NCBI RefSeq assembly: GCF_013408985.1
Contig: NZ_JACBZT010000001.1
Span: 1,860,001-1,924,000 of the forward strand
Source: Petropleomorpha daqingensis
GTDB lineage: Bacteria; Actinomycetota; Actinomycetes; Mycobacteriales; Geodermatophilaceae
Direction: 5' to 3'
DNA length: 64,000 nt
In this document: in pieces, positions 29,708-40,923 of the stretch
Layout: the number at the start of each line of letters is the position of its first letter
Numbering within the stretch: the first letter of the stretch is position 1
Made by a program: the position numbers and the translations under genes
The notes under the pieces: generated by a model
Told to the model about the DNA's origin: nothing
Seen by the model: the letters and a program-made list of their open reading frames with translations, nothing else
Database searches by the model: none

Positions 29708-32164
29708 TCAGGAAGCGAACACCCCAGCGAGGTGGGCGCGCAGCGCGCTCTCGGTCACCGGGCGGGTGCGGAACCCGACGTGCCCGTCGGGCCGCACGAC
29801 GTACGCTGCCGAGCCGGTCTCCCCGCCCAGCCCGTAGGCCGCGGCGAACGCCCCGTGGCAGTCGCGCAGCACCGGCAGGTCGACCAGCGGCGGCACCTTC
29901 GCCGCGGCGCAGGCGATCAGGTACGGGTGCACCTGCCCGCCGGTCGCCTCCCGGATCGAGGAGGCCAGCGCCTCCATCTCCATGATCTGCGACTTCGGCG
30001 TGGTCGCGTCGGCGGTGAGCAGCAGCGTCGTGTGCGTGCCGTGCGTCAGGTCGAACAGCCGCACGTCGTGCTGCACGCCGAAGCGCCGCAGGCCGAGGAC
30101 GTCCGGTGCCCGGTAGCCGGGCGCGGGCCCGCCGCTGAACCCGTCGAGACCGGTGACCTCGCCGACGAGCGGGCTGCCGGCGTAGTTCATGGTCATCTGC
30201 ATCTCGAGCAGGAACTGCGCCTTCTCGTCCTCCATGTCCATCTCGTCGGTGAACGCGATGGCCACGGCCCGGTCGACGATCGCCTTGCCCGCCGGCCGCC
30301 GCTCCGCCTCGTAGCTGTCCAGCAGCGACGGCGACGCGGCGCCGCGCACGGCGAGCGCCAGCTTCCAGGACAGGTTCCAGGCGTCCTGGATGCCGGTGTT
30401 CATGCCCTGCCCGCCCGCCGGCGGGTGGAGGTGCGCGGCGTCCCCGGCCACGAACACCCGGCCGACGCGGTAGCGGTCGACGATGCCGTGCTTGATCCGG
30501 AAGATCGACGCCCACCGCAGGTTGCTCGCCGTCGTCCCGGCCGGCCCCAGGTCGTCGATCACGGCCTGGAGGTCCTCCAGGCCCGGCGGGTCGTACTCCT
30601 TCCAGAACCCCGGCGGGACGACGCCGCTGCCGATCGTCTTCTGGAGCCGCTCCGGCGCCAGCGTCGCGATCCGGTACCGGTTGCGCCCCTTGAGCGGGAC
30701 GCACACCAGCATGCCGGTGAAGTCCCCGCCCTCCTCGATCCGCACCCACCGGAGCAGGTGCCCGGGCGGCATGTCCCAGTCGACGTCGACGTCCCCGAGC
30801 ATGAACAGCTGGGGGAACATCGACAGCCCGCCCTCGAACGTCAGGCCGAGGCCGGCCCGCACCGCGCTCGAGGCACCGTCCGCCCCGACGAGGTACTGCG
30901 CCCGCGCCGTCCCCGCGGTGCCGCCGGGGTACTCGAGCTGCGCGGTCACCCCGTCGTCGTCCTGCTGGAACCCGCGCAGCTCCACGCCGCGCTCGACCTC
31001 GATCCCCAGCGAGGCCAGGTGCGCACCCAGCAGCCGCTCGGTCTCGTACTGCGGCAGCCCCAGGTGGGCGTAGGGCAGCTCGTCCAGGCCGGACCAGTCC
31101 ACCTGGTGGGTCTGCGTGCCGTTGACGAACACGGTCTGGCCGTGCAACCACGTCCCGGCGTCCATCGCCTCGGTGACGATGCCCATGTCCTCCCAGATCT
31201 CCATCGTCCGGCAGTGGATGCCGATCGCCTTGTCCGCCTGGGTCGACGGCTCCGGGCGCTTGTCGATCACCCGCACCGCGATCCCGCGGCGGGCCAGCTC
31301 GATCGCCGCGGTCAGCCCGGTCGGGCCGGCGCCGACGACCAGCACCTCGCTCGCCTTCGCCGTCCGCACCACGCCGTTCGGCGACGGCGTGGGGGGCGCC
31401 TGGACGACCGGCTGCGGTCGCGGCTCGGGCACCCGCACCGGCTCGGGCTCCACGACGGCGGGGGCAGCGGGGGCAGCGGGGACGGCGGCCGGTTCCGCGT
31501 TCACCCGGGCCACCCCGGCCTCCGGCGGCCGGAACCGGATCTCGAAGACCTTGCGGTCGAAGAACACCGACAGCCAGCGGATGATCGGGCCCGTCTGGTC
31601 GGCGTGCGACGGGTCGTCCACCCAGTTGCGGAAGTCCTGCTCGGTCTCCCACTCGGCGAAGATGTGGTAGAGGTCCGTGCCCGCCTCGTGCAGCAGTTCC
31701 TCGCGGATCAGCCCGGGCGTCCCCCGCAGCCGGTCGGTCACCACCGCGTAGGCGCGCTCGAACGCCTCGCCCTCACCCTCGCCGACGCGCGTGGCGATGT
31801 CGATGCGCACGTGCGAGGCCTGCTCGCCGCCCGTCACCCCGTAGAGCAGGTCGAACGTGCTGCGGTCGGCGTCCTCCCGCAGGTCGCGCAGCGCCTCGGT
31901 CAGCATCTCCCGCGCGCTGGACCGGCCGAACGCGTCGACCGCGGCGCGGTCGGCCCAGTCGGCGGCGATGAGGAAGGTCCGCGGGTCGTCGCCGTCGCGC
32001 AGCAGTTCCTGCTTGAGGTTGCCGGGGACGGCGGCGATCTGCGCGGCCGCCTCCCGCCAGGCGTCCTCGAACCGGTCCTCGCAGCCCTCCCGCACGCGCA
32101 TCCGCAGCAACGTGCGGACCGCCCCGCCGTGCACGGTTCCGGGCCGCTCCTCGAGCATGGTCAT
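29708..32164 (-). CDS. SchA/CurD-like domain fused to FAD-dependent polyketide monooxygenase
   Basis: The 818-residue fusion is the last gene of the polyketide operon. Residues about 1-215 contain two ferredoxin-like (ABM/SchA-CurD-type) repeats (for example FRNWVDDPSHADQTGPIIRW). A Pro/Ala/Val-rich linker follows (about 216-270). An aromatic hydroxylase domain comes next: FAD GAGPTGLTAAIELARRG, DG motif VGADGASSAVR, GD motif VFVAGDAAHLHPPAGGQG. A thioredoxin-like tail ends the protein. In spore-pigment clusters the SchA/CurD protein and the hydroxylase are usually discussed as separate genes. It probably oxygenates the cyclised polyketide. ATG 32164 overlaps the CLF stop. Confidence 0.88.
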   Translation of the reverse strand: MTMLEERPGTVHGGAVRTLLRMRVREGCEDRFEDAWREAAAQIAAVPGNLKQELLRDGDDPRTFLIAADWADRAAVDAFGRSSAREMLTEALRDLREDADRSTFDLLYGVTGGEQASHVRIDIATRVGEGEGEAFERAYAVVTDRLRGTPGLIREELLHEAGTDLYHIFAEWETEQDFRNWVDDPSHADQTGPIIRWLSVFFDRKVFEIRFRPPEAGVARVNAEPAAVPAAPAAPAVVEPEPVRVPEPRPQPVVQAPPTPSPNGVVRTAKASEVLVVGAGPTGLTAAIELARRGIAVRVIDKRPEPSTQADKAIGIHCRTMEIWEDMGIVTEAMDAGTWLHGQTVFVNGTQTHQVDWSGLDELPYAHLGLPQYETERLLGAHLASLGIEVERGVELRGFQQDDDGVTAQLEYPGGTAGTARAQYLVGADGASSAVRAGLGLTFEGGLSMFPQLFMLGDVDVDWDMPPGHLLRWVRIEEGGDFTGMLVCVPLKGRNRYRIATLAPERLQKTIGSGVVPPGFWKEYDPPGLEDLQAVIDDLGPAGTTASNLRWASIFRIKHGIVDRYRVGRVFVAGDAAHLHPPAGGQGMNTGIQDAWNLSWKLALAVRGAASPSLLDSYEAERRPAGKAIVDRAVAIAFTDEMDMEDEKAQFLLEMQMTMNYAGSPLVGEVTGLDGFSGGPAPGYRAPDVLGLRRFGVQHDVRLFDLTHGTHTTLLLTADATTPKSQIMEMEALASSIREATGGQVHPYLIACAAAKVPPLVDLPVLRDCHGAFAAAYGLGGETGSAAYVVRPDGHVGFRTRPVTESALRAHLAGVFAS

Positions 32165-33399
32165 GACATCCCCCCTGCGTAGCGCCGCAGCACGATGCTG
32201 CTGTTGAAGCCGCCGAACCCCCGGGCGACGACCACCACCGTCGACACGTCCTGCACGCGCGGATGGCGCACGAGGTCCACGCCCGGGGCGTCGACCGGGT
32301 CGTCGAGGAACGCGATGCCGGGCACGATCCCGTCCCGCATCGCCAGCAGGGCGGTGGCCACGTTCAGCGCCGAGCCGCCGGCCATCAGCCGCCCGGTCCA
32401 GGACGACGGAGCGGTCACCGGCACCGGCGTCGTCCGGTCGCCGAACACCGCGGCGAACGCCTGCAGCTCGAGCGCGTCGAGCTCGGGCGTGCCGGCGGCG
32501 TCGGCCACCACCAGGTCGACGTCGTCCGGGCCGACCCCGGCGTCGGCCAGCGACAGCCGGATCGCCCGCGCGTACTGCGTCGCGTCCGGCGCCGGGTCCT
32601 CGGAGTGGTAGGCGTCGTGGGTGGCGCCGTAGCCGGCGACCTCGCCGTACACCTTCTCCGCGCCCCGTGCCCGCGCGGCCGAGGGCTCCTCGACCAGCAG
32701 GATCGCGCCGCCCTCGCCGATCACGTGCCCGTCGGCCCGGCGGTCGAACGGCCGGTAGGCCTCCTCGGGGCGGGTCGCCGTCGACAGCCGGCCGCTGGTC
32801 GCCTGGCAGAGCAGGGCGTACGGGCAGATGCCGGCCTCGGTGCCCCCCACGAGCACCGCCGGGGTGCCCCGGCGGGCGACGCGGCGGGCCCAGCCGATGC
32901 TGTCCAGCCCGCCGGCGCCCTCCGAGACGACGACGCCGCTGGGTCCCTTGTAGCCGTCGCGGATCGAGATCTGGCCGGTGCTGGCGGCGTAGAACCAGGC
33001 GATCGACTGGTACGCGCCGACCGACTTGGGCCCCTTCGCCCACAGCCCCTGGATCTCGTGCTGGCTGAACTCGTTGCCCCCCGAGCCCGAGGCCAGGAAC
33101 ACCGAGGTGGCGTAGGCGTCCTCCGGGGCCTGGTAGCCGGCGTCGGCCGCGGCCAGCGTCGCCGCGGCCAGCGACGTCCACGTCCACCGGTCGGTCTGCA
33201 CCATCAGCTGGGTCGAGACGTGCTCGCCGGGGTCGAAGTCGCGGATCTGGGCGGCCAGCGTCACCCCGTACCGCTCCGCGTCGAAGCCGGTGATCGGCCC
33301 GATCGCCGGTCGCTCGTCGAGCAGCGCGGCCCAGTGCGCCTCGGCTCCGATCCCCGTGGGGGCGACGACGCCGAGCCCGGTGACCAGCAGCCCGCTCAC
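32161..33399 (-). CDS. type II PKS chain length factor (KS-beta)
   Basis: The 412-residue thiolase-fold protein is paired with KS-alpha (GTGA overlap). The nucleophile Cys is absent: the equivalent stretch is [14 protein letters not shown]. Characterised CLFs usually have Gln before the AGG; here the codon at 32917-32919 gives Gly. CLF sets polyketide chain length as a heterodimer with KS-alpha. GTG 33399 ([16 protein letters not shown]) aligns with the normal N-terminus. Confidence 0.9.
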
Positions 33400-34691
33400 G
33401 GCATCCGCCGCGTGGGGTGGGCCAGCACGATCGCCGACTGGAACCCGCCGAACCCGCTGCCCACCGAGATCGCGACGTCGACCTTCTGCTCGCGCGCCAC
33501 GTTGGGCACGTAGTCGAGGTCGCACTCGGGGTCGGGCACCTCGTAGTTCGCCGTCGGGGGGACGAGGCCGCGCTGCACGGCCAGCGCCGTGGCGGCGACC
33601 TCGATCGACCCGATCGCTCCGAGCGAGTGCCCGATCATCGACTTGATCGAGCTCATCGTCACCCGGCGCGCGGTGTCCCCGAGGCTGCGCTTGACCGCGG
33701 CGGTCTCGTGCCGGTCGTTCTGCTTCGTCCCCGAGCCGTGCGCGTTGACGTAGCCGACCTCGTCGGGGTCGACCCGGCCCTGCCCCAGCGCCAGCCGGAT
33801 CGCCTCGGCCATCTCGGTGCCGTCCGGCTTGAGCCCGGTCATGTGGAAGGCGTTGCAGCGGTTGGCGTAGCCGCTGACCTCGCAGTAGATCTCCGCGTCC
33901 CGGGCGCGGGCGTGCTCGAGCTCCTCCAGCACCAGGATCGCCGCGCCCTCGCCCATGACGAACCCGTCGCGGCGCGCGTCGAAGGGCTTGGAGGCGTGTT
34001 CCGGATCGGCGTTGTTGGCGGTGGTCGCCCGGATCGTGTCGAAGCAGGCCATCGAGATCGGCGAGATCGGGGCGTCGCTGGCCCCTGCGATCACCACGTC
34101 GGCGTCGCCGTCCTCGATCAGCTGGCTGCCGTACCCGATGGCGTCGATGCCGGAGGTGCAGCCGGTCGAGACCACCGTCGCCGGGCCGTGCGCGCCGAAC
34201 CGGATCGCCAGCTCGGTCGCCCCGCAGCTGGGCACCAGCGCCTGGTGCAGGAAGTTCGTCGCGTAGCGCGGGTCGACCAGCCAGTGCGTGCCGGAGTCGC
34301 TGACCTGCACGTACTCGTTCTCCAGCCGCATCGTCGCGCCGACCGCGGTGCCCAGCGTGATGGCCACCCGGTCGGGGTCGGGGGCGTCGGCCGCCCCGCC
34401 GGCCCCGAACGTCAGCCCGCTGTCGGCGACCGCCTCGTCGGCGGCGATCATCGCCATCTGCACGAAGCGGTCGTTGCGGAACACCTCGTTCGCGGTCAGC
34501 CCGAGCGCGCGCGGGTCGAAGTCCACCTCCGCGGCGACCTGCGAGCGGAAGCGGGCCGGGTCGAAGAACGTGATCCGGCGCGTCGCCGTCCGGCCGGCCG
34601 TGATCATGTCCCAGAAGCCCTCCCGGCCGATCGAGCCGGGAGCGAGCACGCCGATCCCGGTGACGACGACCCGGCGCCCCTCCGCGCTCAC
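33396..34691 (-). CDS. type II PKS ketosynthase alpha
   Basis: The 431-residue condensing enzyme has the active-site Cys in [14 protein letters not shown] and the two His in [11 protein letters not shown] and GHSLGAIGS. With the CLF and the ACP it extends malonyl units into an octa- to dodecaketide-type chain. GTG 34691 overlaps the cupin stop. Best matches by motif are aromatic spore-pigment-like KS-alpha proteins; no ketoreductase gene accompanies it. Confidence 0.95.
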
Positions 34692-35119
34692 CGAGCGCCG
34701 TTCGGGCCCGGCGCGGGCTCGGTGTCCACGTGGCCGAGCTCCGGCCGCGGGGCCAGCGGGCCGCACATGAACACGAAGAACGCCGTCGTCGGGCCGTCGT
34801 TGACGATGCGGTGCCGCACCCCGATCGGGATGTGCACCGCCGCCTCGGCCGGCAGCCGGCGCTCCTCGCCGTCCAGCCGCACCGACACCTCGCCGGAGAC
34901 GCAGTAGAGGTACTCCTCCGAGTAGGGGTGCCAGTGCTCGGTCACGACCTCGCCCGGCTCGAGGGTCAGCGTGCCCATGAACCCGGCCGTGGCGCCCACG
35001 CTCGTGGGCGACAGCAGGACGCGGATGTCCCCGCCGCGGCGGCGGTTGGGCGCGGTGTCGGCCCGGTGCACCGTCGGGCCGGAGCGGACCGCCGGCGCGG
35101 CGTGCTGGATCGTCGTCAT
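34688..35119 (-). CDS. cupin-domain polyketide cyclase-like protein (TcmJ/WhiE-II type)
   Basis: The 143-residue single cupin has the metal-binding pattern [12 protein letters not shown] and the second-motif His in [12 protein letters not shown]. Small cupins of this kind lie directly upstream of KS-alpha in tetracenomycin and spore-pigment clusters, where they assist cyclisation or oxidation. ATG 35119 follows a GAGGAGA SD. Confidence 0.85.
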
Positions 35120-36093
35120 GTCTCTCCTCGGGTGGGGACCGGGCTCGCCAGGGCGGGTTCGGGCAGGTCGACGGGGAAGGGGAGGTGCGGCCCGGAGACG
35201 AGCGCCACCGGCAGGGTCGGGTGGACCTGCCGGATCAGCGGGCCCAGCACCGGGACGCTGCCGATCTCGAGAACGGCGGTGGCGCCGCTGTCGACCAGCG
35301 CCTGCGAGGTCGCCTGCCACTGCACGGGCGAGGTGAGGTGCGCCTGCAGGCAGGTGGCCAGCCGTTCGGGGTCCCGCGTCGGCGTCGGATCGGCGTTGGG
35401 CAGCACCGCGACGTCGGGCTCGGACCAGTCCAGCCGCGCCAGGGCGGTGGACAGGTGCGGGACGACGGGCGCCACGAGCGGGCCGTGGCACGCGGCGCGG
35501 CCGGGCAGGCGCACCATGTCCAGCCCCGCGACGGCCACCGCGCGCCGGGCGCGGGTCAGCTCCTCGCGGGTGCCGGCGAGCACGATCTGCCGGGGGCCGT
35601 CGATGCAGGCGATGGTGAGCGTGCCGGAGCTGCCGGACTCGGCGACCAGCATCCGGGCGACGCTCTCGGCGCCGGCGCCGATCACCGCCGCCATCCCGGC
35701 GAAGGACGGCCGAGGCGACAGGTTCAGCAGGTCGGCGCGCCAGTGGACCAGCTCGACCACCTGGTCCAGCCGGAGCGCGCCCGCCGCGACCAGCGCGCCG
35801 TACTCACCGACTCCGTGCCCGGCCAGGACGTGCGGGCGCAGCCCGAGCGCGGCGAGGCTGCGGACGGCGGCCACCCCCGTCACCACCACCTCGAGGTCGG
35901 CAGCAACGGGATCGGCCATGGCGAGCGGGTCGCACCACCAGTCGGCCAGGTCCCGGCCGATGACCTCGGACGCCTCGGCCAGGACGGCGGCCGCCGGCTC
36001 GTCGAACCGCCACGGCCCGGCCAGCCCGGCGATCGCGCCGCTCTCGCCGGGCAGGACGACGGCGACGGCCTCGGAGCGACCCGGCCCGGTCAC
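35116..36093 (-). CDS. acyltransferase (FabD/MCAT-fold) protein lacking the nucleophilic Ser
   Basis: The 325-residue protein has the FabD acyltransferase layout, but the GHSxGE elbow reads [16 protein letters not shown]. The codon at 35812-35814 is GGA (Gly) instead of Ser. The early GQGSQ motif is also degenerate (PGESGA), while the His motif (ACHGPLVAP) and the HWR arginine region remain. Most type II PKSs borrow FabD from fatty-acid synthesis. An in-cluster copy without nucleophile could be a scaffold, a hydrolase-dead chain-release partner or a decarboxylation helper. Overlaps on both sides put it firmly in the operon. Confidence 0.82.
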
Positions 36094-36581
36094 GTCCCCG
36101 GCTCCTTGACGCGGGCCGCCGCCTCGACCTTGTCGCGGATGACGGCCATCTGGACCTTGCTGTTGGCGTCGATCCGCCGCGTCATGCCGGCGGTGTCGAT
36201 CGGCGCCTCGGGCCGCATGTGGAAGTCCTGCACCCAGCGCATCCGGGTGCCGGTGCCTTCCGGCGTGTAGGTCCAGCGGATGTTCATGAACTCGAAGGGG
36301 CCGGGCTCCACCCGGCGGGCCACGACCTCGTGCGCGGCCTCGTCGAGGGTGCGCTCGGACACCCAGCTCCAGACCCGGCCGCTCTCGTCGGGGTGCATCT
36401 TCAGCCGGAACCGGTAGGTCGGGCCGGTCTGCGCGAGGATCTCCACCTCGGCGTACTCGGTGAACAGGTCCGGCCACGCCTCGAGGTCGTTGGTCATCCG
36501 CCAGACGTGGTCGATGCCGGCGTCGATGAGGATCGAGTTGTCGGTGTGGCCGACCGTTTCCTGCTGCTCGACGGTGCTCAT
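36090..36581 (-). CDS. polyketide aromatase/cyclase (SRPBCC, TcmN/WhiE-VI type)
   Basis: The 163-residue single-domain START-fold cyclase has VWRMTNDLEAWPDLFTEYAE and RFRLKMHPDESGRVWSW, as in monodomain ARO/CYC proteins. It directs first-ring cyclisation and aromatisation of an unreduced chain. It lies 1 base after the ACP coding region and overlaps the acyltransferase-like gene. Confidence 0.92.
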   Translation of the reverse strand: MSTVEQQETVGHTDNSILIDAGIDHVWRMTNDLEAWPDLFTEYAEVEILAQTGPTYRFRLKMHPDESGRVWSWVSERTLDEAAHEVVARRVEPGPFEFMNIRWTYTPEGTGTRMRWVQDFHMRPEAPIDTAGMTRRIDANSKVQMAVIRDKVEAAARVKEPGT

Positions 36582-36582
36582 G

Positions 36583-36840
36583 TCAGGCCATCCCCGCCGG
36601 GGCGGAGCCGGACACGGTGGCGACGATCTCGCCGAACGTGTACCGGTCGGGGCTGTCGTCGGGCATCTCGACGCCGTAGCGGTCGTGCAGCTCGGTCTGC
36701 ATCGACAGGAACGCCAGGGAGTCCAGCCCGATGTCGGCGAACCGGGCGTCGGGGTCCGTGGTGTGTGCCGACGGCGGCAGACCCGCCTTCTCGGTGAGCA
36801 CGGCCATCAGGTCGGACAGGGTGAACGTGGGGTCGGGCAT
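36583..36840 (-). CDS. acyl carrier protein (internal start within the BC-ACP frame)
   Basis: The 85-residue type II PKS ACP has the phosphopantetheine Ser in DIGLDSLAFLSMQ. ATG 36840 is preceded by AGGAGGG with a 9-base spacer, so free ACP can be made from the same frame in addition to the BC-ACP fusion. Free ACP is what KS/CLF normally needs. Whether both forms exist is not known. Confidence 0.85.
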   Translation of the reverse strand: MPDPTFTLSDLMAVLTEKAGLPPSAHTTDPDARFADIGLDSLAFLSMQTELHDRYGVEMPDDSPDRYTFGEIVATVSGSAPAGMA

Positions 36841-38328
36841 GGCGGGGTTCCCTCCTGGGTGCCTGCGGGTGGGGTCCGGCCGCTCGTCGGCCGGGAGCGG
36901 GACCAGTTGCAGCACGCCGCGACCGATGGCGGGCAGCTCGGGCACGGGTTCGTCGAGCAGCGCCCCGGCCCGGGCGACCAGCTCGGGCAGGGCGCGGTCC
37001 AGGAACTGGATGTCGTGCCGGTCGGCCAGCACGTCGGGGTGGCGCAGCAGCGCGCGGTGCAGGGCCACGGTGGTGCGCACGCCGGGGCCCTCGACCCGCA
37101 GCTCCGCCAGGGCGCGGTCCATCCGGCGGATCGCCTGGTCGCGGTCGGGGGCCCAGACGACGAGCTTGCCCAGCAGCGAGTCGTAGTGCGGGCTGACCGT
37201 GTCGCCCTGCCGGTAACCGGTGTCGAACCGCGTCCAGGGACCGTCGGGCACGTGCAGCACGTCCAGCCGGCCCGGTGCGGGGGCGAAGCCGCGCGTGGGG
37301 TCCTCGGCGTTGATCCGGCACTCGATGGCCGCCCCGCGAGGGACGACGTCGTCCTGCCGGATCGACAGCCGGCGCCCTCCGGCGGCGAGGATCTGCTCCC
37401 GGACCAGGTCGATGCCCGTGAGCAGCTCGGTCACGGGGTGCTCCACCTGGATGCGCGCGTTCATCTCCATGAAGTAGGCGCGTCCGGACGCGTCGACGAG
37501 GAACTCCATGGTTCCCACGCCCGTGTAGCCCACCGACAGCGCGCCGTGCACGGCCAGGGCGCCGAGCCCCGCCCGCTGGGCCGGGAGCAGGTGGGCGGCG
37601 GGGCCCTCCTCGAGCAGCTTCTGGTGCCGCCGTTGCAGCGAGCAGTCCCGCTCGCCCAGGTAGATGCCCTGACCGTGCGCGTCGCAGAGGATCTGCACCT
37701 CGACGTGCCGCGCGGAGGGGAGGAAGCGTTCCATGTAGACCGTCGCGTCGCCGAAGATCGCGCGCGCGGTGGCACGGGTGCTGGTGAACGCCTCCGCCAG
37801 CTCCGAGGGGGCGCGGACCACGGTCATGCCCCGGCCGCCGCCTCCGGCCGCCGCCTTGATGATCAGCGGATAGCCGATCGAGTCGGCGACGGTCCGCGCC
37901 TCGCTCACGGTCGGCACCGGCTCGACGACACCGGGCAGCAGCGGCAGCCCGGCCTCGGCCATGAGCCGGCGCGCGGTCGCCTTGTTGCCCATGACGTGCA
38001 TGACCTCGGCCGGCGGCCCGACGAAGGTCAGCCCCTCGGTCTCGCAGATCTCGGCGAAGTCGGGGTCCTCGGAGAGGAACCCGTACCCGGGGTGGACGGC
38101 GTCGGCGCCGGTGCGCAGTGCCGCCTCGATGATGTTGGGCACGTGCAGGTAGCTGGACCGGGGGGCCGGCGCCCCGATGTGCACCGACTCGTCGGCCAGG
38201 TCGAGCAGGGCCGAGTTCCGGTCGCAGGTCGAGTACACGGCCACGACCTCGATGCCCAGCTCCCGGCAGGCCCGCGCGACCCGGACGGCGATTTCGCCGC
38301 GATTGGCGATGAGCAGCCGGCTGATCAC
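36583..38328 (-). CDS. accC: biotin carboxylase fused in frame to acyl carrier protein
   Basis: The 581-residue frame has a biotin-carboxylase part (residues 1 to about 450: ANRGEIAVRVARACRELG, KAAAGGGGRGM, EMNARIQVEHPVTE), a Pro-rich linker, and an 85-residue ACP at the C-terminus. Every codon from 36841 back to 36908 was read and none is a stop, so the carboxylase has no terminator of its own before the ACP. BC carboxylates biotin on BCCP using ATP and bicarbonate. GTG 38328 overlaps the BCCP stop. A sequencing error that removed a stop or shifted frame is the main alternative. Confidence 0.85.
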   Translation of the reverse strand: MISRLLIANRGEIAVRVARACRELGIEVVAVYSTCDRNSALLDLADESVHIGAPAPRSSYLHVPNIIEAALRTGADAVHPGYGFLSEDPDFAEICETEGLTFVGPPAEVMHVMGNKATARRLMAEAGLPLLPGVVEPVPTVSEARTVADSIGYPLIIKAAAGGGGRGMTVVRAPSELAEAFTSTRATARAIFGDATVYMERFLPSARHVEVQILCDAHGQGIYLGERDCSLQRRHQKLLEEGPAAHLLPAQRAGLGALAVHGALSVGYTGVGTMEFLVDASGRAYFMEMNARIQVEHPVTELLTGIDLVREQILAAGGRRLSIRQDDVVPRGAAIECRINAEDPTRGFAPAPGRLDVLHVPDGPWTRFDTGYRQGDTVSPHYDSLLGKLVVWAPDRDQAIRRMDRALAELRVEGPGVRTTVALHRALLRHPDVLADRHDIQFLDRALPELVARAGALLDEPVPELPAIGRGVLQLVPLPADERPDPTRRHPGGNPAMPDPTFTLSDLMAVLTEKAGLPPSAHTTDPDARFADIGLDSLAFLSMQTELHDRYGVEMPDDSPDRYTFGEIVATVSGSAPAGMA

Positions 38329-38819
38329 GGGGTCATCTCCCGCGGCCGCAGCAGCATGAGGACCTGGTCGTACTCCACGGACTCGCCGTTCTCGACGAGG
38401 ACCTCGACGACCGTGCCGGCCGTGTCGGCCACGATCGGGTTGAGGAGCTTCATCGCCTCGACGATCCCGAGGGGCTGCCCGGCCTCGACGTCGGTGCCCG
38501 GGCTCACGAAGGGATCCGCCCCGGGCGAGGCCGCGGAGTAGAACGTCCCCACCAGCGGGGCCCGCACGGCCGTCGTGTCCTCTCGTCCCTCCGCCGCGCT
38601 CGCCGTCGGCACCGGCGCCGGGCCGACGGTCGACGGGACGCCGGTGTCGGTCCCCGGTGCCCACTCCACCTCCACGGCCCGGTCGCCGTCTCGCACCGTG
38701 AGCCGGCGCAGCGTTCCCGGCAGCGCCCGCGCCAGCTCCACGACCTCGTCGTGGAGCTGTTGCCCGTTGTCGGACGCCGAGGGGCGGGCGCTGCGCGGGG
38801 GGAGCTCGGTCGGTTGCAC
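38325..38819 (-). CDS. accB: biotin carboxyl carrier protein of acetyl-CoA carboxylase
   Basis: The 164-residue protein has a charged N-terminal region, a Pro/Ala linker and a C-terminal biotinyl domain with the biotinylated Lys in VEAMKLLNP. It carries carboxybiotin between BC and carboxyltransferase. GTG 38819 lies 2 bases after the AccDA stop; its own stop overlaps the BC start. Confidence 0.9.
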   Translation of the reverse strand: MQPTELPPRSARPSASDNGQQLHDEVVELARALPGTLRRLTVRDGDRAVEVEWAPGTDTGVPSTVGPAPVPTASAAEGREDTTAVRAPLVGTFYSAASPGADPFVSPGTDVEAGQPLGIVEAMKLLNPIVADTAGTVVEVLVENGESVEYDQVLMLLRPREMTP

Positions 38820-38821
38820 GG

Positions 38822-40540
38822 TCAGCTCCTCTGCAGCGAGGTCGGGCCCGACGCGTGGAACAGGGCGCCGTCGCCGCCGATCCGGGCCAGCCGACGAGCG
38901 CGGGCCTCCAGCAGGGCGTCGACGTCGAGAGCGGACAGCTCGGCGAGGTCGGCCAGCAGGGCCTCGCGCAGCGCGTCCGCCGCGGCAGCGGGGTCGGTGT
39001 GCGCGCCGCCCGGCGGCTCGGGGACGACGGCGGTCGCGATGCCGGTCGCCTGCAGGTGGGTGGCGCCCAGCCGCATGGCGCGCGCGGCGGCCGGGGCGGC
39101 CGTGGCCGTGCGCCACAGGATCGCTGCGCACCCCTCCGGGCTGATCACCGAGAGGTAGGCGTTCTCCAGCACGAGCAGCCGATCGGACGTGCACAGGGCC
39201 AGCGCGCCGCCGCTGCCGCCCTCGCCGGTGACGACCGCGATGACCGGCACGCGCAGCCGGCTGCTGCGCATGATGATCTCCGCGATCGCGTGGGACTGGC
39301 CGCGCTCCTCGGCTTCCGGCCCGGGGTGGGCGCCGGGTGTGTCGACGAGGGTGATCACCGGCAGGCCGTAGGTCTCGGCGTGACCGAGCAGCCGCATCGC
39401 CTTGCGATAGCCCTCCGGGTGCGGCATCCCGAAGTTGCGGGCCACCCGCTCGCCGACGGTGTGGCCCTTCTCCTGCCCGAGCACCACGACGGAGCGCCCG
39501 CCGATCGAGGCCACCCCACCGACGAGCGCCGGGTCGTCGGCGAAGGCCCGGTCGCCGTGCAGCTCGACGAAGTCGTCGAAGACCGTGCGCAGGTAGTCCA
39601 CGGCGGTCGGGCGCTCGGTCATGCGCGCCATCCGCACGACCTCCCACGGGTCCAGCCGTGTCGGGGGCACCGGCCGCCGGACCGTGGGCGGCGGCTCGAC
39701 GTCCGGGCGGGGAGCGTGCAGCGCGATCAGGCGGGCCAGCAGCGGCCGGATCTCCGCGCGCGTCTCCACGCGGTCCACCAGCCCGTGGCCGAGGAGGAAC
39801 TCCGCCGTCTGGAATCCGGCGGGCAGCGTCGTGCGGATCGTCTCCTGGACGACCCGCGGCCCGGCGAACCCGACGTGCGCACCGCGCTCGCCGACCAGGA
39901 TCGAGCCCAGCGTGGCGAAGGACGCCGACACCCCGCCGTACGTGGGGTCGGTGAGCACGCACACGGTGAGCAGCCCCGCCTCGCGGAGCCGGGCGAACGA
40001 CTCGCTGACCCGCGCCATCTGGAACAGCGAGAACACGCCCTCCTGCATCCGGGCGCCACCGCTGGCGCACACGGTGACGAGCGGGAGCCCGAGGTCCAGC
40101 GCGAGCCCGGCCGCGCCGCTGACCCGGCCGCCCACCTCGAGACCCATGCTGCCGCCGAGGAAGCCGAAGTCCATGACGGCGAGGACCACGTCGGCGCCGC
40201 CGATGCGCGCCGTGCCCACGACCACCGCCTCGCTCTCGCCGGAGCGCTGCGCGGCCTCGCGGAGGCGCTCGGGATAGCGGCGCAGATCGGTGAAGTCCAA
40301 CGGGTCCCGGGGGGCCGGCGCGAAGGTGGTCTCGCTGAAGCTCCCCGGGTCGACCAGCAGCTCGATCCGGGCCCGCGCGCCGAGCTGCAGGTGGTGGTCG
40401 CACTCCGGGCAGACGGAGAGGTTGCGCTCGAGCCGCTTGCGGTAGAGCAGCCAGCCGCAGCCCGGGCAGCTCACCCAGCCCGCCGGGGCGGACGAGGCGA
40501 CGGCGCCGTTGTGCACCGCCCGCGTCATCGTGCGGGTCAT
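38822..40540 (-). CDS. acetyl-CoA carboxylase carboxyltransferase, AccD-AccA fusion
   Basis: The 572-residue fusion starts with an AccD-type zinc ribbon (CPGCGW and CPECDHH), followed by the beta-carboxyltransferase (VTVCASGGARMQEG) and then the alpha half (LGQEKGHTVGER, FGMPHPEGYRKAMRLL, VDTPGAHPG). It transfers the carboxyl group to acetyl-CoA to make malonyl-CoA, presumably dedicated to the polyketide. ATG 40540 overlaps the TcmI-like gene. Confidence 0.93.
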   Translation of the reverse strand: MTRTMTRAVHNGAVASSAPAGWVSCPGCGWLLYRKRLERNLSVCPECDHHLQLGARARIELLVDPGSFSETTFAPAPRDPLDFTDLRRYPERLREAAQRSGESEAVVVGTARIGGADVVLAVMDFGFLGGSMGLEVGGRVSGAAGLALDLGLPLVTVCASGGARMQEGVFSLFQMARVSESFARLREAGLLTVCVLTDPTYGGVSASFATLGSILVGERGAHVGFAGPRVVQETIRTTLPAGFQTAEFLLGHGLVDRVETRAEIRPLLARLIALHAPRPDVEPPPTVRRPVPPTRLDPWEVVRMARMTERPTAVDYLRTVFDDFVELHGDRAFADDPALVGGVASIGGRSVVVLGQEKGHTVGERVARNFGMPHPEGYRKAMRLLGHAETYGLPVITLVDTPGAHPGPEAEERGQSHAIAEIIMRSSRLRVPVIAVVTGEGGSGGALALCTSDRLLVLENAYLSVISPEGCAAILWRTATAAPAAARAMRLGATHLQATGIATAVVPEPPGGAHTDPAAAADALREALLADLAELSALDVDALLEARARRLARIGGDGALFHASGPTSLQRS

Positions 40541-40923
40541 CGCCGCCCCCCGGCCTGCGGTCGCGCGACTCCCTCCGGCGCGGCCGTCCAGTGGTAGAAC
40601 CGCTGCGCCATCGCGTCCCGCGGGGACTGCCAGTTGGGGTCGTACGCGGTGATGTAGGGCCGCAGCTCCTCGCTGATGCGCCGGAAGTCCGGCAGCGACT
40701 GGGCGATCTTCATCGCCTCGGGCCCGGGCCGGTCGAACTCGATCAGGTGCACGTACAGCTCGTGGAACCGAAACAGCGACCGGGAGCGCACGCCGATCTC
40801 GTGGGGCATCGACGTCTGGTCGTAGCTCCCGAAGATCGCCGCGACCTCGTGCTCGTCGGCCGGGGCCATCCTCGCGATGATCACGGTCTGGTCCACATGG
40901 GCCTCCAGCGTCCGCACCGGCAC
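40537..40923 (-). CDS. TcmI-family type II polyketide cyclase
   Basis: The protein is up to 128 residues, with the TcmI pattern TVIIARMAPADEHEVAAIF, SMPHEIGVRSRSLFRFHELY and DPNWQSPRDAMAQRFYHW. It catalyses late ring closure. TcmI proteins usually start near TVIIARM, so GTG 40896 (MDQTVIIARM) could be the true start; no SD decides it. It is the first gene of the operon. Confidence 0.87.
   Translation of the reverse strand: MPVRTLEAHVDQTVIIARMAPADEHEVAAIFGSYDQTSMPHEIGVRSRSLFRFHELYVHLIEFDRPGPEAMKIAQSLPDFRRISEELRPYITAYDPNWQSPRDAMAQRFYHWTAAPEGVARPQAGGRR

Follow-up and report, generated by a model that had tools for sequence, protein, structure and literature searches.

Among the closest described systems we count the whiE-type spore-pigment and pentangular polyphenol clusters, which combine a ketosynthase (KS), a chain length factor (CLF), an acyl carrier protein (ACP), SRPBCC and TcmI cyclases, a cupin and an FAD/ABM oxygenase, as does the locus described here. 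We know of no carboxylase belonging to whiE itself, and of no fused ACP there. Carboxylase genes do occur in the formicamycin (for) cluster, where a figure legend defines ACC as acetyl-CoA carboxylase and the text names ForABC as the minimal polyketide synthase (PKS) (PMC5414599). Like our locus, for places them among the genes for an aromatic polyketide, alongside KS-alpha, KS-beta, ACP and cyclases; unlike our locus, it comes with no mention of a fusion between biotin carboxylase (BC) and ACP in the excerpts of that report (PMC5414599). A search of the open-access PMC literature found no BC-ACP fusion in a type II PKS context (no mention in the excerpts of PMC6498181 and PMC8374128), and by word search "carboxylase" is absent from the main text of a type II PKS review (PMC12664062) and of a catalogue (PMC10132072). 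A type II PKS cluster with its own carboxylase is therefore known; what is new here is a BC-ACP fusion, probably with free ACP as a second product.

The window, by which we mean the whole 64,000-nucleotide stretch analyzed, covers positions 1,860,001 to 1,924,000 of the single 5.38-Mb contig (GC about 74%) of Petropleomorpha daqingensis, the sole genome of its genus in our comparison set. Hosts of the cluster are actinobacteria from soil and rock. On the minus strand, the gene order runs from a TcmI-type polyketide cyclase (40537–40923) through a fused AccD-AccA carboxyltransferase (38822–40540), a biotin carboxyl carrier protein (BCCP, 38325–38825), the BC-ACP frame (36583–38328), an SRPBCC polyketide cyclase (36090–36581), a FabD/MdcH-like acyltransferase (35116–36093), a cupin (34688–35119), KS-alpha with its active-site Cys in TGCTSG (33396–34691), and a CLF with the ketosynthase fold (32161–33399), named from its position and absent Cys, to an FAD monooxygenase with ABM domains (29708–32164). 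The carboxyltransferase scores 336.3 bits with the accA model (cut-off 319.3) and 308.6 with accD, just below the cut-off of 317.45; the BCCP carries EAMKL and scores 115.7 bits with TIGR00531 (cut-off 115.2). Since the locus sets BC, BCCP and the two carboxyltransferase halves next to KS-alpha, CLF and ACP, it is an aromatic (type II) polyketide operon that carries a complete, dedicated acetyl-CoA carboxylase of E. coli type. By analogy with whiE-type clusters, we would guess that its product is a dark pigment.

Two features of the operon stand apart from the fusion. AccD and AccA form one 572-residue protein, and the carboxylase is of E. coli type in an actinobacterium. Separately, the FAD monooxygenase holds two ABM stretches within one protein.

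The BC frame opens at a GTG (38328) that overlaps the BCCP stop (GTGA), continues through a tail of ~50 residues and a proline-rich linker into the ACP, and stops at 36583. Its translation has 581 residues with a single terminal stop and none internal, bearing out the earlier note's statement that no stop separates carboxylase from ACP. The BC part, tail and linker included, spans 36844–38328, and the 85-residue ACP part, with the phosphopantetheine motif DIGLDSL, spans 36583–36840. Pfam places Biotin_carb_N (residues 2–110), CPSase_L_D2 (116–322), Biotin_carb_C (336–444) and PP-binding (507–558) in this one frame, and both the BC and the ACP half exceed the Pfam cut-offs. The BC is of AccC type, with Biotin_carb_N, ATP-grasp and Biotin_carb_C all present and a PRK08591.1 score of 605 bits (cut-off 597); with the accC equivalog TIGR00514 it scores 589.7, below the cut-off of 626.5. 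Its residues 4–457 align to the solved BC 8hz4, with MNARIQVEH matching MNTRIQVEH. The ACP has the DSL serine of a type II PKS carrier, scores 33.9 bits with PF00550 (cut-off 20.8), and finds its best solved-structure match in the actinorhodin PKS ACP, IGLDSL aligning with IGYDSL. An AlphaFold model of the fusion, built from 6 sequences, was too poor for use (mean pLDDT 56.1, pTM 0.42).

At about 74% GC stops are rare, so an open frame alone is weak evidence of a fusion. Support for the junction comes instead from its contrast with the other operon junctions and from its recurrence in the family. Seven of the 10 junctions between the 11 neighboring parts are 4-nt ATGA or GTGA stop-start overlaps, AccDA and BCCP meet in a CTGA overlap or a short gap, and ACP/SRPBCC reads TGA-C-ATG; BC/ACP is the sole junction without a stop.

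To trace recurrence, a six-peptide pattern was scanned against genome contigs. The scan returned six loci, and the nearest named relatives belong to the Geodermatophilaceae; each of the six named relatives has all 11 operon parts in unchanged order. Five of the six read through the junction in frame, the exception being G. pulveris, where the BC frame meets a stop about 11 codons inside the ACP. When whole genomes were searched, 35 of the 112 from the family proved to carry the locus which, with Blastococcus sp. CPCC 205250 (L009), gives 36 distinct loci; L010–L014 were excluded as duplicates of L017, L025, L038, L039 and L041, with equal identities and offsets. BC and ACP share one stop-free frame in 17 of the 36, Geodermatophilus obscurus and Trujillonella endophytica being among the fused species, and the fused state appears in all five coded genera that carry the locus. 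That the read-through reflects a sequencing or assembly error, which the earlier note had allowed for, has nothing in its favor beyond the general risk at this GC content, and we regard its chances as negligible: 16 further family loci in other genomes, five of the six named ones included, have the same open junction. Recurrence across other genomes rules such an error out.

The remaining 19 family loci encode BC and ACP separately, with BC displaced by one common offset. In three of these the BC stop coincides with the ACP start codon; in the other 16 it falls 16 to 61 nt into the ACP gene. Two genera (g4 and g10) contain both states, and three with single loci (g1, g2 and g11) only the fused one. 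No locus of the 36 uses the third frame, whose next stop lies 182 nt to more than 1.7 kb past the ACP start, for several loci beyond the stretch read. A shift into this frame would therefore add a long tail, which alone may explain its absence. A universal, fixed fusion is ruled out by the 19 unfused loci, and the same loci make the fusion dispensable. The stop codon in close homologues that the earlier note had proposed as evidence against a fusion is thus found in part of the family and missing from the rest. BC-ACP is a real in-frame translational fusion, recurrent and not universal.

The frames at two fused loci, L009 and L017, have a further property. The frame used by unfused loci is stop-free there for 1,786 nt past the ACP start in L009 and, in L017, for no less than some 1,738 nt, roughly where the stretch ends. 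Of the three frames, the fused one thus yields the shortest product.

We then looked outside the family for the ancestral arrangement. Among the 29 BC loci examined at class level, with flanks of about 1.5 kb, five have a detectable ACP, directly behind BC in four; the 1.5-kb flanks of the 24 others contain no ACP. These four and L051, from an order search, form the outgroup junction set (L051, L062, L063, L069 and L070), from which we left out L050 (genome G231; an ACP, no BC in the stretch) and L059 (ACP 483 nt away). As in our locus, BC is followed directly by ACP, and in L051 and in L082, which covers the L062 locus at greater length, the SRPBCC cyclase, cupin and KS follow in matching order. 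The outgroup pairs differ in being separate proteins, joined by a 4-nt ATGA overlap in 5/5, and their BC tails are short in four of the five (in L062 the tail is long and differs in sequence). On this evidence, the fusion appears to have evolved from a coupled stop/start.

With frame as a character, BC trees need at least three changes, and one gain with two losses is as short as two gains with one loss; well-supported branches alone force three changes in one BC tree and two in another. The outgroup branches are long, making the root uncertain. Single and multiple origins are thus equally short, and we do not claim a single one.

Wider searches returned no second fusion in what they covered. 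In a class-wide sample of 394 genomes, in which the best three candidates per genome were scored and few of these came from Geodermatophilaceae, only the window's own match covered the ACP among 54 BC matches at E ≤ 1e-150. The longest other BC match in this sample, which reaches residue 521 in G295, contains a stop, and no ACP was found in the stretch read there. BC matches occurred in 440 plasmid records, and none of the best 12 of the 440 extends past residue 523 of 581. When 396 genomes from across the phylum were searched for the ACP at E ≤ 1e-10, the window alone matched.

Is ACP also made on its own? In-frame internal starts are known to yield a long and a short product, as in CheA, the short one being the C-terminal part. 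Our case, a candidate read from sequence, is unlike such dual starts in that outgroups encode the two domains as separate genes. The ACP ATG lies at 36840–36838, and direct reading of the bases confirms AGGAGGG at 36856–36850, within the fusion frame and 9 bases upstream, just as the earlier note had it. At −10.8 kcal/mol, this Shine-Dalgarno is matched at 0.7% of BC positions and at none of the 27 internal ATG/GTG codons of the BC. All 17 fused loci keep a start codon (16 ATG, one GTG) with a purine-rich stretch before it. In each of them a 45-base stretch around the ACP start is open, at −3.4 to −10.4 kcal/mol versus about −17 kcal/mol in the BC body, an openness matched by at most 6% of sampled BC positions. 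The 19 unfused loci are likewise open at the ACP start (at most 4% of BC positions).

The strength of the site varies among fused loci, from −5.3 to −11.8 kcal/mol. In six of the 17 it is just −5.3 to −6.0 kcal/mol, a value that 17–31% of BC positions match. Under synonymous resampling, the Shine-Dalgarno stands out in six fused loci (p ≤ 0.021), not in the other 11, and in none of the 19 unfused; six of these 11 have their site dictated by the encoded residues PEED. This mixed result offers weak support for selection on the site in 6/17 fused loci. The weak sites would suit a reading in which fused lineages leave the internal start unused, make only the fusion and have ACP act tethered to BC. 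We consider this improbable, as the ACP start is equally open in fused and unfused loci and no fused locus has lost its start codon and purine-rich stretch. Free ACP is likely also made from the internal start. The proposal in the earlier note that the locus could make both forms therefore holds for the fusion, a real and shared frame, and is plausible for the internal start; the Shine-Dalgarno is not exceptional in every fused locus.

To gauge whether the fused ACP is used, we examined the stretch that joins it to BC. For lack of a stop, ribosomes completing BC must make BC-ACP. In favor of a role, the tail is coding-like, with third-position GC of 0.915 (0.835 in its last 20 codons) against 0.983 in BC. 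Tail and linker dN/dS values of 0.64, 0.44 and 0.22 in three fused groups, versus 0.12–0.13 in BC, suggest some constraint on the tail, and a weak one on the linker, though such values are noisy on short stretches, the ACP itself giving 0.29–0.81. Across the BC tree of 36 loci the linker changed length at least 17 times. Multiples of three account for 15/17 changes under the most favorable parsimony reconstruction and 9/17 under the least favorable (excess over one third, p = 4.5e-6 and 0.075, respectively). Because the count depends on the reconstruction and unfused loci also have a coding tail, it is not proof of selection on the fusion.

These data bear on whether the tethered ACP does anything. 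The same two products would be expected if the fusion were a tolerated by-product, its BC-bound ACP a passenger and free ACP doing all the chemistry, the loss of the stop having been cheap once ACP had its own start. Poor linker conservation fits this, as do the one or two reversions to the unfused state that the shortest trees include and the retention of the whole operon in an unfused relative (L011). On the other side stand the presence of the fused state in five coded genera, though a single base change could restore the stop, the many linker length changes in multiples of three, and the unused third frame. We hold this passenger role to be a serious contender, somewhat short of an even chance.

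The best reading, which we consider probable, is that one operon gives two products, BC-ACP and free ACP, both of which would accumulate. An ancestral coupled stop/start (ATGA) at BC/ACP would have been lost, so that ribosomes finishing BC run on into ACP to give the 581-residue protein. Initiation at the internal Shine-Dalgarno and ATG would supply the 85-residue free ACP, as required in unfused relatives. Free ACP would then serve the ketosynthase; the BC-bound ACP would be at least tolerated and may keep some of the cell's ACP close to the carboxylase.

The acyltransferase of the operon offers a further view of how ACP might be loaded, a step for which an acyltransferase is normally required. 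The protein reads GHGVGE where FabD has GHSLGE, with Gly in place of the nucleophilic Ser. Gly occupies this position in 34 of the 36 family loci (two with GYG) and Ser in one (L029); no acyltransferase gene was found at L036, even in a wider stretch (L088), which makes 34 of 35 where the gene is present. Outgroup loci L051 and L082 differ from ours in leaving no space for the gene: their cyclase-cupin gaps are 63 and 54 nt, so they have no acyltransferase there. The genome's only other FabD-model match keeps the serine (GHSVGE; both matches score below the curated cut-off), and we infer from this that ACP loading probably relies on the GHSVGE protein.

A bolder arrangement can be drawn from the same parts. 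The carboxylase holoenzyme, with ACP arms on BC, could be a self-loading supply complex in which malonyl units pass to ACP on the spot, the Ser-less acyltransferase serving as scaffold or docking partner instead of transferase and free ACP exchanging with or complementing the tethered form. We judge this unlikely. BC (AccC) carboxylates biotin only; the step that yields malonyl-CoA belongs to the carboxyltransferase, here AccD-AccA. A direct malonyl link would therefore need the whole carboxylase complex. The suggestion in the earlier note that the tether physically links malonyl-CoA supply to the carrier is unproven: BC is not the subunit that forms malonyl-CoA, and unfused relatives do without the tether.

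For genome annotation, we predict a gap: gene callers that assign a single start to each frame would report fused loci as a long carboxylase without an ACP, and the cluster would appear to lack its carrier. If both forms are made, the family provides a natural experiment in tethering a precursor-supplying enzyme to its carrier, complete with matched fused and unfused relatives. It would bear on how type II PKS carriers get their malonyl units, and on designs that fuse supply enzyme to carrier.
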